From a virus: a stretch of DNA of 40,228 bases. Position 1 is the first letter of the stretch, and each line of letters begins with the position of its first letter. Below, piece by piece: positions 3,782 to 18,786 of the stretch. Location of the stretch: IMG/VR virus record IMGVR_UViG_3300037193_001849, positions 1 to 40,228 of that record. One strand, 5' to 3'. The position numbers and the translations under genes were made by a program. The notes below the pieces were generated by a model, which saw only the letters and a list, made by a program, of their open reading frames with translations, had not been told where the DNA came from and did not search any database.

Positions 3782-5047
3782 CTACCTGTTGACCTGCGTC
3801 AGAGCTCCCTTCCGAGGGCGGGATTCCGGAATCCTTCCGGTGGTCCGAGAGAATTCCGCTGGCTTCGTCTGAGTGTCGCCCGAAGTGGCCCACGCCGCAT
3901 CCAGAACATCGCGCGTCTGCTCCTCGGCCTCGGCGAACAGGTGGGCATAGATGCGCATGGTGAATGCGACGTCCTTGTGCCCGAGCCTCTTGCTCACAAC
4001 CTTCGGATTCTCGCCACCCGCGATAAGCACCGAGGCGTAGTGATGGCGCAAGTCGTGCCAGCGGTACCGCTTTGCTCCAGCCTTGGAGCACATCGCCTTG
4101 AACGCCCAATCCAGGGTGCTCTCGCCAATCGGCTTACCCCTCGGCATGGTGAAGACCAGACCAGCGAACTCGCCCGACTTCGGAGGCGGATACTTCGCGA
4201 TGTACTCGGCGAGCAGATCCACCGCCCGCTGGTTGAGCGGAATCGTGCGGCGGCCGGCGCCGGTCTTCAGACCGTCGAAGTAGTAGCCCTTGCCTGCCTC
4301 GTACACCAGCTGCCGGTGCACGTCGAGAGTCCTGTGCAGCAGGTTCAGCTTGTCGAGGCACAGCCCGCGTATCTCACCCGAGCGCAGGCCGGTGAGAGCG
4401 TCCAGCTCCGTCATGACCGCCCACCGGTCATGGTGCGCCTCGCCGACGATGCGCCGGGCGGTGTCGACGTCCGGCGGGTCGATCTGTGGCTCGACCAGTG
4501 TGGGCGCCTTGACGCCTGCGAACGGGCTGATGGGGATCATGCGGTCGAGCACGGCGAGCGTGAAGACGCTGCGCACCAGCCGGGCAGTCCGGTTCGGTGT
4601 GGTGCCGGACAGCTCGTACTTGGTCGTCAGAAGGTTCTGCCAGGCGCCGGCCTCGCTCGGTCGGATGGAGCGGATCTCGCGTGACCCCCACTCGGGGATC
4701 AGATAGCGGTTCATCACTCCGCGGTATTCGCGCTTGGTGCGCTCGATGGTGGCTGTGGCAGGAAGCCAGATGTTGAAGACGACCGTCTCAATCTTCGTTT
4801 TCCCGCGGTCCGGATCGATCCATGAGCCGGTGAGCTTCGAGCCCTCCTGCTTGGTGATCTCGTTCTGAGCCTCGGTCAGGGTGCGCCACAGGGCTGTGCG
4901 CTCTTTGCCGTCCGGCCCGTCGTATCTGGACTGCCACCGTTTGCCCTTCCCGTGGGCAGCGGCGGCGACCTTGCCCTTGTGTTCTCCGCACTCCGGGGCC
5001 CCGTCGGGCGGCCGGGACAGATGCCAACGGTCAACGACGTATCCCAT
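3782..5047 (-). CDS. int: Tyrosine-family site-specific integrase
   Basis: The 421-aa phage integrase would catalyse integration at a chromosomal attB. Residues 1-95 form the basic arm-binding part, including KGKRWQSRYDGPDG; about 90-175 is the SAM-like core-binding domain; the rest is the catalytic domain. Visible catalytic residues are Arg222 (TGLRSGE), Lys261, His331 and Arg334 (HDLRHHYAS), His357 (RLGHKD) and nucleophile Tyr367 (RIYAHL). Length and motif order are complete. The ATG at 5047 has GAGG six bases upstream and lies inside the end of the 71-aa gene, a 17-nt overlap, so the two are probably co-expressed. Hairpins at 3530-3602 probably end the transcript. Confidence 0.96.
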   Translation of the reverse strand: MGYVVDRWHLSRPPDGAPECGEHKGKVAAAAHGKGKRWQSRYDGPDGKERTALWRTLTEAQNEITKQEGSKLTGSWIDPDRGKTKIETVVFNIWLPATATIERTKREYRGVMNRYLIPEWGSREIRSIRPSEAGAWQNLLTTKYELSGTTPNRTARLVRSVFTLAVLDRMIPISPFAGVKAPTLVEPQIDPPDVDTARRIVGEAHHDRWAVMTELDALTGLRSGEIRGLCLDKLNLLHRTLDVHRQLVYEAGKGYYFDGLKTGAGRRTIPLNQRAVDLLAEYIAKYPPPKSGEFAGLVFTMPRGKPIGESTLDWAFKAMCSKAGAKRYRWHDLRHHYASVLIAGGENPKVVSKRLGHKDVAFTMRIYAHLFAEAEEQTRDVLDAAWATSGDTQTKPAEFSRTTGRIPESRPRKGALTQVNR

Positions 5048-13191: not shown

Positions 13192-14598
13192 ATGGCCCGT
13201 CCGCCCGCGCCCGCTGCTGAGCCCCGCCACCCCCGTGGCGGGGCTGGTGGCGTGGGGCGCGGGCAGTGGGTGCGCTACCCGCTGCGGGTCGTCGTCGACA
13301 CCGTCGCGTACGCGGACGCCGACACGAAGGTCTACGGCAAGGTCAAGGCCCTCTCGAAGAACCGTGCCTGCGAGGCCTCCGTGGCCAAGCTCGCCGAGTA
13401 CACCGGCCTGTCCGTTTCCGCCGTCGAGAAGGCGCTCACGCGTCTGTCGAGGCCCGCGAAGACCGACGGCGTGCGGGAGCTGACCCGCCGCCAGCGATCC
13501 CACAAGGGCACGGGAACGGGCCGTACGAACGAGCGCACCACCCGGTCCCTGGAGGACGACGAGCGGTACGTCTACGCGCCCGTGCGGGCCGCTGACACCC
13601 TGCGCGGCACCCTGCACCGCCTGTACCTCCTCCTGCGCTACACCACGCTCATCGAGCACCGTGACCTCACCCTCGCCGAGATCGGCGAGGCCCTGCGCCA
13701 CCACGGCGGCAGCCGCGTCGGCGAGGCTCTCCACGAGCGCACCGCCGCCCTCCTCCTGGACGAACTGGAGGCTGCTGGCTGGATCACCCAGGACAAGCGC
13801 GGCGGCTACCGCGGCCGCCACCAAGTCACCGTCCACGACGACCCCGTCCGCCTGGTCGACGACCCCGACGGCACCCCGCCCCCGCCCGGCACACCAGCGC
13901 CCTCGACTCCCGGTGATGAGTGCGGGGCGGCTCCCGATCTTGAGTGCGGGGCCCCCGCGTATAAGGAAGACCAGCAACTGACTGACGCTGAGAAGACGGA
14001 GCCGAGTGGGGGTGTCCGCCGTAGGCGAGGTGACCGTAAGTGGGCGCCCGAACCTGTGGATACCTTCGGTAACCCGATCGCGCGTGAAACTTTCCCCGCC
14101 GAAATTAAGCCCTGGCCACGCCCGTACGACGGGCCCGCGCTGACGCTCTCGCCTCGCGTCTGGTGGGTCCTGGAGCCCGTCCACGCGCTGCTTCCCGGCA
14201 TCAGCCCGTACCTGATGCGCCGCATCGCCCGCGACGTCGGCCGCCAGCTCGACGCCGGTGTCCTCGCCGAGGACCTCCGCGACCAGATCCAGCACCGCCG
14301 AGCCCGTACCGACACCGAGCAGATCACCGACCCCGGACGGTGGCTCCTCGGCGTCGCCGTCGCCCGCTGGCCCTCCCGCTGCGGCCTCGCCGACTGCACC
14401 GACGGATTCCTGCGCCACACCGGCCTGCCCTGCAAGGCCTGCGCCGACGCCCCACACGGCCCCGTACGCGGACACCCACCGCCCACCCCGGCCGCCACCG
14501 CCCTGCAGGAGTGCCCCAGCTGCCACGCCCCCTACCGGCCACCCCTGAGACACCCCAACTGCCGCCTCTGCCACCACCCGCTCACCACCACCGCCTGA
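13192..14598 (+). CDS. Replication-initiator-like winged-helix protein (468 aa)
   Basis: The largest early gene. Residues about 25-110 (VVDTVAYADADTKVYGKVKA, ASVAKLAEYTGLSVSAVEKA) form a winged-helix domain, and a second similar segment lies at about 145-220 (HRDLTLAEIGEALR, LLDELEAAGWITQD). A low-complexity linker (about 225-290) follows, then a helical C-terminal domain and two Cys pairs near the end (CKAC; CPSCHAP with CRLCHHP). This arrangement matches phage replication initiators such as lambda O in plan, not clearly in sequence. The ATG at 13192 has a weak ribosome binding site; a GTG at 13249-13251 region is too far in to keep the first domain whole. The linker DNA holds origin-like repeats. 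Confidence 0.75.
   Translation: MARPPAPAAEPRHPRGGAGGVGRGQWVRYPLRVVVDTVAYADADTKVYGKVKALSKNRACEASVAKLAEYTGLSVSAVEKALTRLSRPAKTDGVRELTRRQRSHKGTGTGRTNERTTRSLEDDERYVYAPVRAADTLRGTLHRLYLLLRYTTLIEHRDLTLAEIGEALRHHGGSRVGEALHERTAALLLDELEAAGWITQDKRGGYRGRHQVTVHDDPVRLVDDPDGTPPPPGTPAPSTPGDECGAAPDLECGAPAYKEDQQLTDAEKTEPSGGVRRRRGDRKWAPEPVDTFGNPIARETFPAEIKPWPRPYDGPALTLSPRVWWVLEPVHALLPGISPYLMRRIARDVGRQLDAGVLAEDLRDQIQHRRARTDTEQITDPGRWLLGVAVARWPSRCGLADCTDGFLRHTGLPCKACADAPHGPVRGHPPPTPAATALQECPSCHAPYRPPLRHPNCRLCHHPLTTTA
13917..14063. other. Candidate replication origin inside the initiator gene
   Basis: TGAGTGCGGGGC occurs twice (13917-13928 and 13941-13952), exactly 24 bp apart. The second copy runs into a 13-bp palindrome (13946-13958). 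A less GC-rich stretch follows to about 14115, with TGTGGATAC at 14055-14063, the complement of a DnaA-box-like sequence (8 of 9 to TTATCCACA). Position in the protein's linker mirrors the lambda origin in gene O. Confidence 0.45.
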
Positions 14599-14617
14599 CC
14601 CGGAAGGACCCCGTGCA

Positions 14618-14953
14618 ATGCCCTACAACGCCCCGCGCCCCGCCCCACGCAACGGCCCCGGCACATGCCCCAGATGCCACGAGCCGGTGATCTTCTGCCT
14701 CAACTCGAACGGCAACACCCAGGCCATCAACCGCGACCGCGTCGACTACGGCAACCAAGCCGTCCGCCAAGACTCCGCCGGCCGCTGGCACGTCCGCCAG
14801 CTCACCAAAGACCGCCCCACCCTCGAAGGCAGCGAGGCCCTGCACTACCCCCACGCCCCCACCTGCCTCAACCCCGCACCCAGACCCGCCACCCGCCGCC
14901 TCTCCTCAGCCAAAGTCAAGGTCGGCGTACGGCCCGTCAGGTGGCAGCGATGA
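14618..14953 (+). CDS. Early hypothetical protein with zinc ribbon-like start (111 aa)
   Basis: The ATG at 14618 has GGAAGGA about ten bases upstream. The sequence GTCPRCHEPVIFCLNSNG places three cysteines and a histidine together, followed by NTQAINRDRVDYGNQ and a likely beta-strand-rich body with RWHVRQLTKD. A Cys near residue 87 (APTCLNP) may complete a site. Unrecognised. The stop overlaps the next ATG. Confidence 0.7.
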   Translation: MPYNAPRPAPRNGPGTCPRCHEPVIFCLNSNGNTQAINRDRVDYGNQAVRQDSAGRWHVRQLTKDRPTLEGSEALHYPHAPTCLNPAPRPATRRLSSAKVKVGVRPVRWQR

Positions 14954-15567
14954 AGATCCGCGCCGACGTCGCCGAGCTCCTGCGCGCCGGCGTCCCCTAT
15001 CGCCAGATCCGCGCACAGCTCCGCGTCGGCAACCCCACGATCATCGCCACCCGCAAAGCCATCGGCATGCCCCCAGGCCGCCCCGGCGGCCACCCCATGA
15101 GCGACGAGGAACGGCGCACCGCCGCCCTCCAGCGCCACCCCGAAGCCGTCGCCATGCTCCGCGCCGGCGCCACCTACCGGCAGATCCGCGCCGCACTCGG
15201 AATCAGCCCGCCCACCATCAGCAAAATCCGCCGCGACCTCGACATCCCCGTCCGCGAACAGCACCGCCCCGCCCGCACCACCGCCCAGGCCCTCGCCGTC
15301 CACGCCCAGCCCCACACCGACGGCCACACCCACTGGACCGGCCCCCACACCAGCCGCATGCCCCAACTCTGGGCCGAAGGCCGCTGCCACAGCGCCCTCC
15401 GCGTCGCCTTCCACCTCCACCACGGCCGCGAACCCGTCGGCCCCGTACGCCGCGGCTGCACCGACCCCGACTGCATCACCGGCGCCCACCTCACCGACCA
15501 CACCATCCGCCAAGCCAACCACCGCGCCGACCAAGCATTCGAACGCATATTCGGCGACGCGCCGTGA
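14950..15567 (+). CDS. Double-HTH protein with HNH-like zinc loop (205 aa)
   Basis: Two related HTH segments occur in tandem: LLRAGVPYRQIRAQLRVGNP at about residue 10 and MLRAGATYRQIRAALGISPP at about 65. The C-terminal part (about 130-200) contains WAEGRCHSALRVAFHLHHGR and RRGCTDPDCITGAHL. The last follows the pattern C-x4-C-(I/V)-x-P/G-x-H-L of phage HNH_3-type zinc-loop nucleases. It may be a sequence-specific DNA nuclease or a regulator derived from one. The start overlaps the previous stop (ATGA). Confidence 0.75.
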   Translation: MKIRADVAELLRAGVPYRQIRAQLRVGNPTIIATRKAIGMPPGRPGGHPMSDEERRTAALQRHPEAVAMLRAGATYRQIRAALGISPPTISKIRRDLDIPVREQHRPARTTAQALAVHAQPHTDGHTHWTGPHTSRMPQLWAEGRCHSALRVAFHLHHGREPVGPVRRGCTDPDCITGAHLTDHTIRQANHRADQAFERIFGDAP

Positions 15568-15683
15568 CGGAAGTCCTCGCCTACATCGTCCTCGTCGTCA
15601 TCACCACCGGCCTCCCACTCGCCCACTGGTCACACCACCTCTGGACCCGCCGCACCACAGCCCACACCCGCAAGGAGCCCTGA
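15564..15683 (+). CDS. Tiny membrane peptide (39 aa)
   Basis: GTGA overlap at the start; the last base of its stop is the first base of the next ATG. Residues 4-22 (VLAYIVLVVITTGLPLAHW) form one membrane helix, followed by a His/Arg-rich tail. Second example, after 7613-7720, of a coupled membrane micro-gene in the early region. Confidence 0.6.
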   Translation: MTEVLAYIVLVVITTGLPLAHWSHHLWTRRTTAHTRKEP

Positions 15684-16180
15684 TGACCGAGCCCACCACC
15701 GACGACACCCTGACCGGCCCGTACGGCACCGCCCACCGCATCCCCCGCGACACCTACACCGACAGCCACCCCGCAGGCCTCGACGCCTGGATCATCACCG
15801 CGCCCATCTGGCACCCCCTGTGGTCCCAGTACAACCTCGGCGTCGTCTCCCTCGCCGACATCCCTGGCCTGCCCCCGGCCAACCTGCAGCGCCCCGGCGT
15901 CACACACGAACTCAGCGTCGTCGCCCTCAACCCCGAACACGGCCCCTACGACGCCCACAACCTCCCCACCACAGGCCTGCGCTTCCTCACCCCCGTCAAC
16001 ATCGCCGAACAGTTCACCACCACCGACGACCAGGCCCGACACCTCGCCCGCCTGTGCGCCCGCGCCGTCGTCGACGGCGTCCTCTGCCCCGAAACCGGCG
16101 ACGCCCCCGACCACATCCGCGCCCTCTGGCACTCCGTCATCCACCAGACCCTCGAACACCCCCACCACCAGGAGCGCTGA
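15683..16180 (+). CDS. Early hypothetical protein (165 aa)
   Basis: The ATG at 15683 overlaps the previous stop, and AAGGAG lies about eight bases upstream. The protein is rich in aromatic residues in its first half (WIITAPIWHPLWSQYNLGVV) and has a Pro/His-rich middle and a helical C-terminus (DQARHLARLCARAVVDGVLC). No motif gives a function. Confidence 0.7.
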   Translation: MTEPTTDDTLTGPYGTAHRIPRDTYTDSHPAGLDAWIITAPIWHPLWSQYNLGVVSLADIPGLPPANLQRPGVTHELSVVALNPEHGPYDAHNLPTTGLRFLTPVNIAEQFTTTDDQARHLARLCARAVVDGVLCPETGDAPDHIRALWHSVIHQTLEHPHHQER

Positions 16181-16183
16181 CCC

Positions 16184-16381
16184 ATGACGTACGTCTTCAC
16201 CGACTCCGACGGCGACCACCTCCACATCACCCCGACCACCCGCTACGGCCACCCCGCGATCAACCTCCGCACCGAACGCGGCGACGGCCAGGGCGGCGCC
16301 GCCGTCGACGTGCCCCTCAACCGCCTCGAGGAACTCGTCGCAGGCCTGCGCGACACCGGCCGCCAAGCCTCCACCCAGTAG
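16184..16381 (+). CDS. Small hypothetical protein (65 aa)
   Basis: The start lies three bases after the previous stop, with CCAGGAGCGCTGACC upstream giving AGGAG at a suitable distance. The sequence begins with a beta-rich part (TYVFTDSDGDHLHITPTT) and ends in a helix (PLNRLEELVAGLRDTG). Unrecognised. It closes a transcription segment before the palindrome at 16388. Confidence 0.65.
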   Translation: MTYVFTDSDGDHLHITPTTRYGHPAINLRTERGDGQGGAAVDVPLNRLEELVAGLRDTGRQASTQ

Positions 16382-16387
16382 CCCCGC

Positions 16388-16450
16388 CTCGCGCGCACGC
16401 GCGCGCCTGCGATTGCGCGCGCGGTAACCGCAGGCACGCGTGCGCGCGAG
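16388..16450. terminator. Large CG-alternating palindrome
   Basis: A perfect 14-bp outer stem (16388-16401 with 16437-16450) and a 7-bp inner stem (16405-16411 with 16429-16435) flank a 17-nt centre. Much of the arms is alternating C/A and G, prone to Z-DNA or cruciform. It lies in a 128-base gap and may terminate transcription, but its size leaves other roles open. Confidence 0.6.
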
Positions 16451-16509
16451 ACCAACACCCCTACCCACCAGTACGAATGGCCGCAGCGCCCCGGCAGGAA
16501 AGAACGATC

Positions 16510-16908
16510 ATGAGATTCGACTTCGAGCCCATCACAACCGCCTTCCAGGCCGACAACGTGGGCGTCACCCTCGCCACCCAGAGCAGATGCGAGCACGGTC
16601 ACCTCGCCTTCGGCCTCAACTTCCCCGGCCGCTGGATCGGCCAGAACACCAGCGGCCTGATCACACCGCTCCCGGTCATCCTGGCCCGCTGCACCGCCAG
16701 CCACATGATCGGAGCCATCAACGCCTTCATCGCCGCCACCGAAGGCCCCGAAGCCGCCACCGCCTTCAACCACGAAGCGATCGCCGCCTTCGACGAACTC
16801 GCCCCGGTCATCCACCAGCTCCACGCCCAGGGCCGGGACTGCTGCCAGGCCGCCTACCTCACCGGCGGCCGCGAACACACCTGCGCCCAGAACGGAACCC
16901 AGAAGTGA
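16510..16908 (+). CDS. Early hypothetical protein (132 aa)
   Basis: The ATG at 16510 has AGGAAAG about eight bases upstream and is the first gene after the palindrome. The sequence is helical, with five to six Cys/His-flanked positions (SRCEHGHLAF, ARCTASHM, GRDCCQAAYL, EHTCAQ). The run AAYLTGGREHTCAQ resembles a zinc-binding tail. No family recognised. Confidence 0.7.
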   Translation: MRFDFEPITTAFQADNVGVTLATQSRCEHGHLAFGLNFPGRWIGQNTSGLITPLPVILARCTASHMIGAINAFIAATEGPEAATAFNHEAIAAFDELAPVIHQLHAQGRDCCQAAYLTGGREHTCAQNGTQK

Positions 16909-17423
16909 CCGCCGACGACCACACCTGCTACATCCGGTCCACGATCGACCCCGAGACCCGCAAGGGCGCCTGCCTGCTTCGCTGGGGCCCCATCACCGCG
17001 CTCCTGGCGCCCGAAGAGGTCCTCACCACCGCACGCGACCTCATGGCAGCGGCGGCCGCCGCCGAGACGGACATCGCGCTCATCCACGCCTTCCGCCAGG
17101 AGCTCGGCCTCGACCTCAACACCATCGGCCACATGGTCCTCAACGTCCGGCGCCACCGCCCCACCCCCACGGGCAAGCCCGCGCTGCGGATAACCGCCGT
17201 CGCCGGCGCCAAGACCGGCCGCCCGTACGTCCACATCGCCCGCGGCTCCCAGAAAGGCGAACTCACCCCCGACGAGGCCCGCGAGATGGCCGTCCACTGG
17301 ACCGAGGCCGCCACCGCCGCCCAGATCGACGTCCGCCTCCGCTACGCCCTCGGCGAGTGGGGCCACCTCACCCCGGACCAGATCGAGGACCTCTTCGCAC
17401 TCCTGCAGAAAGCCCAGCGATGA
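16905..17423 (+). CDS. Early hypothetical protein (172 aa)
   Basis: GTGA overlap at the start and ATGA at the end. It has a beta-rich first part (CLLRWGPITALLAPEEVL), a long Ala-rich helix (ARDLMAAAAAAETDIALIHA) and a second alpha/beta half (KPALRITAVAGAKTGRPYVH). Sequence spacing suggests two related halves, one of them followed by HWTEAATAAQIDVRL, perhaps an internal duplication. Unrecognised. Confidence 0.7.
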   Translation: MTADDHTCYIRSTIDPETRKGACLLRWGPITALLAPEEVLTTARDLMAAAAAAETDIALIHAFRQELGLDLNTIGHMVLNVRRHRPTPTGKPALRITAVAGAKTGRPYVHIARGSQKGELTPDEAREMAVHWTEAATAAQIDVRLRYALGEWGHLTPDQIEDLFALLQKAQR

Positions 17424-18151
17424 ACACCTGCACCACCCCCGACTGCGGACGCACCCTCGACACCCAGAGAAGCCGCCGCCTGTGCCACCGCTGCGCCGAC
17501 CGCCTCACCGCCAAGCTTCACGAACTCCAATGGCAGCTCCCGCACCTGCGCGCCAGCCTGCAGCACGACCGCGCCCCCACCACCGGCACCATCCACGGCG
17601 GCCGCGCCCACTCACCCCTTCCCGCCCGCGCCGACGTCCTTAACCTCCTCGGCGCAGGCGCCAACACCACCCTCACTGACCCCTACAACGAGGCCCACGC
17701 CGACCAGACCGGCCCCCTGCCCATCGACACCATGCTCTGCGGCTGGGCCGAGATCCTCACCGACCACATCGGCCTCGCCGACACCCCCTGGCGACGCCCT
17801 GGCCACACCTGGGCCGCCTGGCACATCGCCTACCTCCCCTGGACGGTGAGCGCGGAGTGGGCCGGCCTCTTCCTCACCGAACTTGACGACATCGTGGGGC
17901 GCGTACGCCGCATCACCCACACCGAACCCCAGCGCCACCTGCAGGACGCACCCTGCCCCAACTGCGACGCCTTCGCCCTCGTCGACGAGGACTGGGCCCC
18001 GTACATCGAATGCGAAGTCTGCGAACGGCTCCTCACCCGCACCGAATACGCCGAACACGCTCGCCAGGTCCTGCCGCAGCTGTACCGCACCGCCCTCGCT
18101 ATCCACATGGCCCAGCAGGCCCCCGAGGCCGTACCGGTCCCGGAAGGATGA
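17420..18151 (+). CDS. Zinc-finger protein (243 aa)
   Basis: The N-terminus has CTTPDCGRTLDTQRSRRLC followed by HRC, a likely four-cysteine site at residues 4-26. The C-terminal part has CPNCDAFALVDEDW and CEVCERLLT, a second four-cysteine ribbon followed by a helix (RTEYAEHARQVLPQLYR). Between them is a Trp-rich helical region. This plan is familiar among actinophage early proteins, but the role is unknown. The start overlaps the previous stop (ATGA). Confidence 0.75.
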   Translation: MNTCTTPDCGRTLDTQRSRRLCHRCADRLTAKLHELQWQLPHLRASLQHDRAPTTGTIHGGRAHSPLPARADVLNLLGAGANTTLTDPYNEAHADQTGPLPIDTMLCGWAEILTDHIGLADTPWRRPGHTWAAWHIAYLPWTVSAEWAGLFLTELDDIVGRVRRITHTEPQRHLQDAPCPNCDAFALVDEDWAPYIECEVCERLLTRTEYAEHARQVLPQLYRTALAIHMAQQAPEAVPVPEG

Positions 18152-18158
18152 GACCCGG

Positions 18159-18461
18159 ATGCGAACACCGCCCCGCAACCCTCGCCCGAACGACGGCGAA
18201 CTCCGCTGCCACGCCCGCACCTGGCCCACAGACCCGCCCTGCCCGCACCCCGCCGCCTGGCACATCGCATGGCTCCTCGCACCACGCGGCCACTTCTCCC
18301 TCACCTGCGAGCAGCACACGGCCCAACTCGCAGCCGTGTACGACTGGGTGGACCGGCACCCAGCAGACATCATGTGCGCCATGCCCGGCACCGGCTGGCT
18401 GACTGGTACAGCGCCGAGCCGCTGCGTCCTCGCCCCGACGGCCCAACTCGCAGAAGGATGA
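18159..18461 (+). CDS. Small Cys/His-rich hypothetical protein (100 aa)
   Basis: The ATG at 18159 lies eight bases after the previous stop with GGAAGGA upstream. It contains CHARTWPTDPPCPHPAAWH and FSLTCEQHTAQLAAVYDWVD, a Cys/His pattern like small actinophage zinc-binding proteins. A second ATG at 18148 opens another frame of 84 codons over the same DNA, with a low-complexity Ser/Thr/Pro product; I prefer the 18159 frame. Confidence 0.7.
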   Translation: MRTPPRNPRPNDGELRCHARTWPTDPPCPHPAAWHIAWLLAPRGHFSLTCEQHTAQLAAVYDWVDRHPADIMCAMPGTGWLTGTAPSRCVLAPTAQLAEG

Positions 18462-18465
18462 CCCT

Positions 18466-18786
18466 ATGGAAGACCTCGCAGAATGGCTGCGTGCCCAGTT
18501 CGACGAGGACGAGCGGATCGCACGCGGTTGCAGCGGCATGGAGTGGTGGGAGCATCCGAAGAACTGGGTGAGCGCTCCACCGTTGAACCGCATTGCCGTG
18601 GTGGTGCATGACGGCGATCGCGGCCACATCGCCCGCCATGATCCAGCGCGGGTGTTGCGCGAGATCGACGCCAAGCGGCAGATCCTTGACACGCTGCACG
18701 AGGAAGGCGGCGACCGCATGTTCGCGGACATCTTCCGGCTGCTTGCACTGCCGTACCTGGACCGGCCCGGCTACCGCGAGGAATGA
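18466..18786 (+). CDS. DUF6221 family protein (106 aa)
   Basis: The sequence runs from MEDLAEWLRAQFDEDERIAR through HIARHDPARVLREIDAKRQI to LALPYLDRPGYREE, the layout of DUF6221, a family very common in Streptomyces genomes and phages. Its function is unknown. AAGGATG lies at 18454-18460, overlapping the previous stop, with the ATG at 18466. It is full length. It closes the main early run; a gap with two hairpins follows. Confidence 0.9.
   Translation: MEDLAEWLRAQFDEDERIARGCSGMEWWEHPKNWVSAPPLNRIAVVVHDGDRGHIARHDPARVLREIDAKRQILDTLHEEGGDRMFADIFRLLALPYLDRPGYREE

Follow-up and report, generated by a model that had tools for sequence, protein, structure and literature searches.

Introduction

Iteron origins that lie inside genes are already known. 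Streptomyces replicons of the pSLA2 rep1/rep2 type, associated with the work of Chang, Kim and Cohen in 1996, reportedly have their iterons inside a gene that encodes an essential DNA-binding protein. In this type, rep1 has been equated with the iteron and rep2 with the helicase (PMC13152386). In bacteriophage lambda, the origin is positioned within gene O (PMC7157519). There, four iterons and a less GC-rich stretch occupy the linker-coding part of the phage's own initiator gene. In the Streptomyces plasmids pFP1, pFP11 and pWTY27, Rep binds direct or inverted repeats adjoining rep, the pWTY27 iteron being a non-coding sequence beside repAB and not within it (PMC3583192). Finally, a 2.9-kb origin fragment of the linear plasmid SAP1 has been cloned as pHAQ61 (PMC3212956); its extent is not given, so we do not claim identity with the SAP1 locus described below.

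Here we analyse a locus in a 40,228-bp virus contig from a Streptomyces phage, the whole of which we refer to as the window. As in lambda, repeats and a less GC-rich stretch fall in the linker-coding part of the phage's own initiator gene; unlike in lambda, there are two iterons, spaced by 24 bp, a DnaA box within the element, a winged-helix initiator with a C-terminal Cys-rich domain and no P-like loader recognised in the open reading frames scanned, and the element module is also found on plasmids. The locus reportedly shares with the pSLA2 type the placement of iterons inside the gene of a DNA-binding protein, but no helicase-like rep2 was recognised next to rep. It has in common with pFP1, pFP11 and pWTY27 the association of repeats with rep in Streptomyces, and with SAP1 a homologous Rep gene carrying the element, which in SAP1 is read in another frame and has a DciA-family gene downstream of rep. 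What appears to be new is a composite, frame-independent element that phages and linear plasmids have in common and that also exists in non-coding copies; some of this may already have been published.

Results

The initiator-like gene and its surroundings

The contig carries an integrase gene at 3782-5047, as well as terminase, portal, protease and tape measure genes. Its 468-aa initiator-like protein matches Pfam HTH_36 (E 5.6e-6) and, weakly, two PHROG families of replication initiation proteins (2.7e-5 and 1.6e-4). An AF2 model places two winged-helix units in tandem (residues 26-117 and 126-214), followed by a linker with pLDDT below 50 (residues 221-314) and C-terminal helices (321-390), the C-terminal domain being helical and Cys-rich. 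The original prediction had put the repeats in a linker, and the modelled residues 221-314 indeed lack a confident fold. Weak fold matches of the model include RepE and plasmid Rep-DNA complexes, the best with a non-significant E of 0.02; the protein has no Pfam match to the Rep_3 family, and its likeness to RepE/Rep_3 is one of weak fold similarity only.

Among the open reading frames scanned, which are part of all those in the window, no helicase, primase or polymerase was recognised, nor a P-like helicase loader beside the initiator gene; likewise, no rep2-like helicase gene was recognised adjoining this initiator gene or the rep genes of pFRL4 and NBC_01267. The adjoining 111-aa protein has phrog_5984, of unknown function, as its sole family, and its gene (14618-14953) comes after rep in most close relatives, with 35-79% identity. 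The reading frame at 14950-15567 is WhiB-like by PHROGs and has only helix-turn-helix domains by Pfam.

A composite DNA element within the linker-coding region

The linker encodes a composite DNA element of about 160 bases within the initiator gene, with the following features:

13192..14598, plus strand: gene of the initiator-like protein, 468 aa (HTH_36, PHROG families, AF2 model)
13907..13928, plus strand: iteron 1 (CTCCCGGTGATGAGTGCGGGGC), 24-bp period kept in relatives
13931..13952, plus strand: iteron 2 (CTCCCGATCTTGAGTGCGGGGC), 24-bp period kept in relatives
13946-13958, no strand: 13-bp perfect palindrome GCGGGGCCCCCGC, imperfect outside the window's close relatives
13954..13972, plus strand: purine-rich conserved box CCCGCGTATAAGGAAGACC, with CGCGTMTAAGGAAGAC conserved and a codon identity of 0.93 among same-residue pairs
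13954..14081, no strand: less GC-rich stretch, 60-bp windows at 0.55-0.62, gene at 0.726
14016..14044, plus strand: core CCGCCGTAGGCGAGGTGACCGTAAGTGGG, the best-conserved piece, in two reading frames across the family
14053..14064, minus strand: DnaA box (GGTATCCACAGG; in relatives TTATCCACA, TTGTCCACA and TTTTCCACA)

The order in relatives is two iterons, the CGCGTMTAAGGAAGAC box, an ACTGAC-type spacer, the core CCGCCGTAGGCGA..TGACCGTAAGTGG and the DnaA box. Two 12-bp direct repeats had been predicted at a distance of 24 bp, and TGAGTGCGGGGC is found exactly at 13917-13928 and 13941-13952, nested within a longer 24-nt repeat (13904-13927 and 13928-13951, 83% identical). The palindrome that had been noticed on the second repeat does overlap it and is perfect in the window, but in this perfect form it is restricted to close relatives; it is not a conserved feature and probably not a required part of the element. 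The purine-rich box could be a putative unwinding or initiator contact site. The core, the most conserved piece of all, had gone unmentioned in the original prediction. About 40 bp past its start lies the single DnaA box, whose predicted 9-mer GTATCCACA is present on the minus strand at 14055-14063 and whose placement is consistent in relatives; the 40 kb contain six sites with at most one mismatch from TTRTCCACA, of which this 9-mer is one. The high-affinity DnaA box of S. coelicolor is TTGTCCACA (PMC4285127). The less GC-rich stretch was likewise correctly anticipated (55-62% GC in 60-bp windows versus 72.6% for the gene), although as an unwinding stretch it is not strongly AT-rich.

Taken alone, the window provides weak evidence for origin-like repeats, because the ECGA..ECGA repeat encoded by the linker DNA largely explains the 12-bp repeat: the latter arose in none of 2000 dinucleotide shuffles of the 147-bp region and, when the shuffle kept the protein and the gene's codons, in the linker in 19% of trials. 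A search for further iterons in the window (at most two mismatches from TGAGTGCGGGGC) remained at chance level, with 11 sites found and 12.4 expected. The GC skew, put forward earlier as a check, has no sign change near 14 kb and gives no clear origin signal; relative to the remainder of the window, it is strongly negative over 14000-18500, where it falls to as low as -0.39.

Conservation of the DNA beyond the protein

The relatives compared come from viral contigs and Streptomyces genomes and include phage Kromp. Across 22 copies from phages, prophages and genomes, the core, the box and the iteron spacing are near-invariant and the DnaA box is kept in 21; since most of these copies were collected by a core-only pattern or by protein similarity, the iterons and the DnaA box were not selected for. 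A broader set of 41 loci, some of them found with a model that already includes the iterons and the DnaA box, gives a repeat with at least 10 of 12 matching bases at offset 24 in 34 loci, versus no more than one locus at each of the other offsets between 12 and 45. The iteron sequence itself varies by group (TGAGTGCGGGGC, GAAGGCGGGGC, TGACGGATC, TGGCGGATC and TGAGGGATC), with the period still at 24 bp. A TTNTCCACA-type DnaA box, variable in its first base, lies downstream of the core in 34 of the 41 loci versus 1 of 922 control windows from the same reading frames; it is absent from some copies, namely those of loci L002, L034 and L037 and of pFRL1.

The initiator of Kromp shares 36% protein identity with that of the window, and no DNA of the gene is better conserved between them than the linker, at 80% over 128 bp versus 35-60% for most other comparison windows. 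Where residues are identical, codon identity reaches 0.87-0.94 over most of residues 250-289, with one 10-residue block at 0.81, and is about 0.45-0.86 outside this range (Mann-Whitney p 4e-6); the rare codons CGT, AGG and CGA are fixed in 17 of 19. In most phages the core encodes RRRRGDRKW, but it encodes S[SP]AVGEV in the prophage-type copies L005 and L015 and in linear plasmids such as SAP1, pFRL4 and NBC_01267. The near-telomere copies of pFRL1 and NBC_00008 are not part of any rep gene, that of NBC_00008 having an in-frame stop in the linker frame, and NBC_00690 carries a similar copy with no Rep match within 11.6 kb. In pFRL1, the stand-alone element is some 8 kb from the recognisable Rep-like gene. 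The 833-aa product of this gene (L060:11045-14382) resembles SAP1 Rep in its C-terminal part, and the gene adjoins one of the DciA family. A repeat scan for a possible second origin at the plasmid's other Rep-like gene gave only one two-copy 18-nt repeat.

Because of the fixed synonymous codons, the use of two reading frames and the copies outside rep genes, what is conserved is, as judged from these comparisons, the linker DNA itself beyond the protein. Weighing repeat conservation against the linker protein had been suggested at the outset, and the outcome favours the DNA, which is kept in two frames and in non-coding copies.

Distribution in Streptomyces genomes and plasmids

A sequence-only model of the element has matches in 61 of 393 Streptomyces genomes (E at most 0.01, the weakest being borderline). 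The window's own 181 bp gave no blastn match among plasmids; a plasmid-type copy of the element matches 83 plasmid records, and the homologous Rep protein was matched in 74 and 93 plasmid records. SAP1 carries a homologous Rep gene with the same DNA element inside, followed by a gene of the DciA helicase-loader family, and in some related plasmids such a gene adjoins rep or lies near it. For the SAP1 rep reading frame (L057:3199-5058), the annotation starts only at 4309, the 5' part being overlapped by a gene on the opposite strand, and the putative origin element falls in the portion left unannotated. In many plasmids of Streptomyces and Kitasatospora, the similarity to SAP1 Rep is confined to its C-terminal half, suggesting that the C-terminal domain also exists apart from its N-terminal partner.

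Discussion

Comparison of the relatives establishes a composite element with frame-independent DNA conservation, defined spacing, a DnaA box and non-coding copies; that the element is bound by protein, is unwound, serves to load the helicase and acts as an origin is what we infer. An intragenic origin of the lambda kind, as originally predicted, is the best-supported reading, given DNA conserved beyond the protein, iterons fixed at 24 bp and a consistent DnaA box. We propose that the linker is very probably a cis-acting theta-type oriV common to phages and linear plasmids, at which the initiator's N-domains would bind the iterons, DnaA would be recruited and the helicase would be loaded. The tandem winged-helix domains at the N-terminus would engage the two 24-bp-spaced iterons in their own gene, while the purine-rich box, the core and the DnaA box would help to open the duplex and recruit host DnaA. 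The region between the iterons and the DnaA box would then open, and host DnaB helicase would be loaded via host DciA or the initiator's C-terminal domain, together with Pol III. One origin module would thus drive Streptomyces temperate phages and linear plasmids alike. Counting against an origin, well-known iteron origins have more such sites than the two iterons and single DnaA box seen here; the copies that lack a DnaA box, the unchanged sign of the GC skew, the non-significant fold matches and the 8-kb gap between element and Rep-like gene in pFRL1 also speak against it. Iteron distances correlate with N-domain distances once the C-domain is removed (partial Mantel r 0.35, p 0.0005), and less so with C-domain distances once the N-domain is removed (r 0.12, p 0.07); this fits iteron binding by the N-domain, although physical closeness may contribute in part.

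Iteron-binding proteins often autoregulate, and the initiator, possibly with DnaA, could bind the linker as a regulatory operator that controls rep transcription or plasmid copy number, the true origin being elsewhere. The stand-alone copies in pFRL1 and NBC_00008 could then be titration sites. We consider this unlikely, as the element is about 700 bp inside the gene and away from the promoter, unites iterons, box and DnaA box and is conserved across replicons with different gene order. It is more improbable still that the linker is a recombination junction, with the DNA conserved where N- and C-terminal modules are exchanged and maintained through repeated swapping of domains: N- and C-domain distances are only partly correlated (r 0.63) and locus L003 has the same N part with a different C part, but recombination alone would not keep a 24-bp period, a DnaA box and copies outside rep genes. 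Finally, we give almost no credence to a conserved protein or RNA feature, such as a disordered peptide motif or a structured mRNA, in place of a DNA element, since, although the KED peptide and the RRRRGDRKW motif are kept in most phage copies, the same DNA yields unrelated peptides in two frames and a stop in NBC_00008, and RNAalifold finds no useful covariation, with a term of only -0.62 kcal/mol.

Returning to the origin reading, a more far-reaching version is that a single origin cassette common to Streptomyces temperate phages and linear plasmids has been over-printed in two frames and has escaped to telomere-proximal non-coding sites, there to act as a free-standing origin driven by Rep in trans; we offer this tentatively and regard it as somewhat doubtful.

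Many Streptomyces phages, prophages and linear plasmids that are so far uncharacterised gain from this locus a candidate origin open to testing and a searchable sequence signature; new Streptomyces vectors would follow. A replication origin that persists in two frames and outside genes would represent an unusually clear split of DNA versus protein constraint, and would link phage and linear-plasmid replication within one genus.
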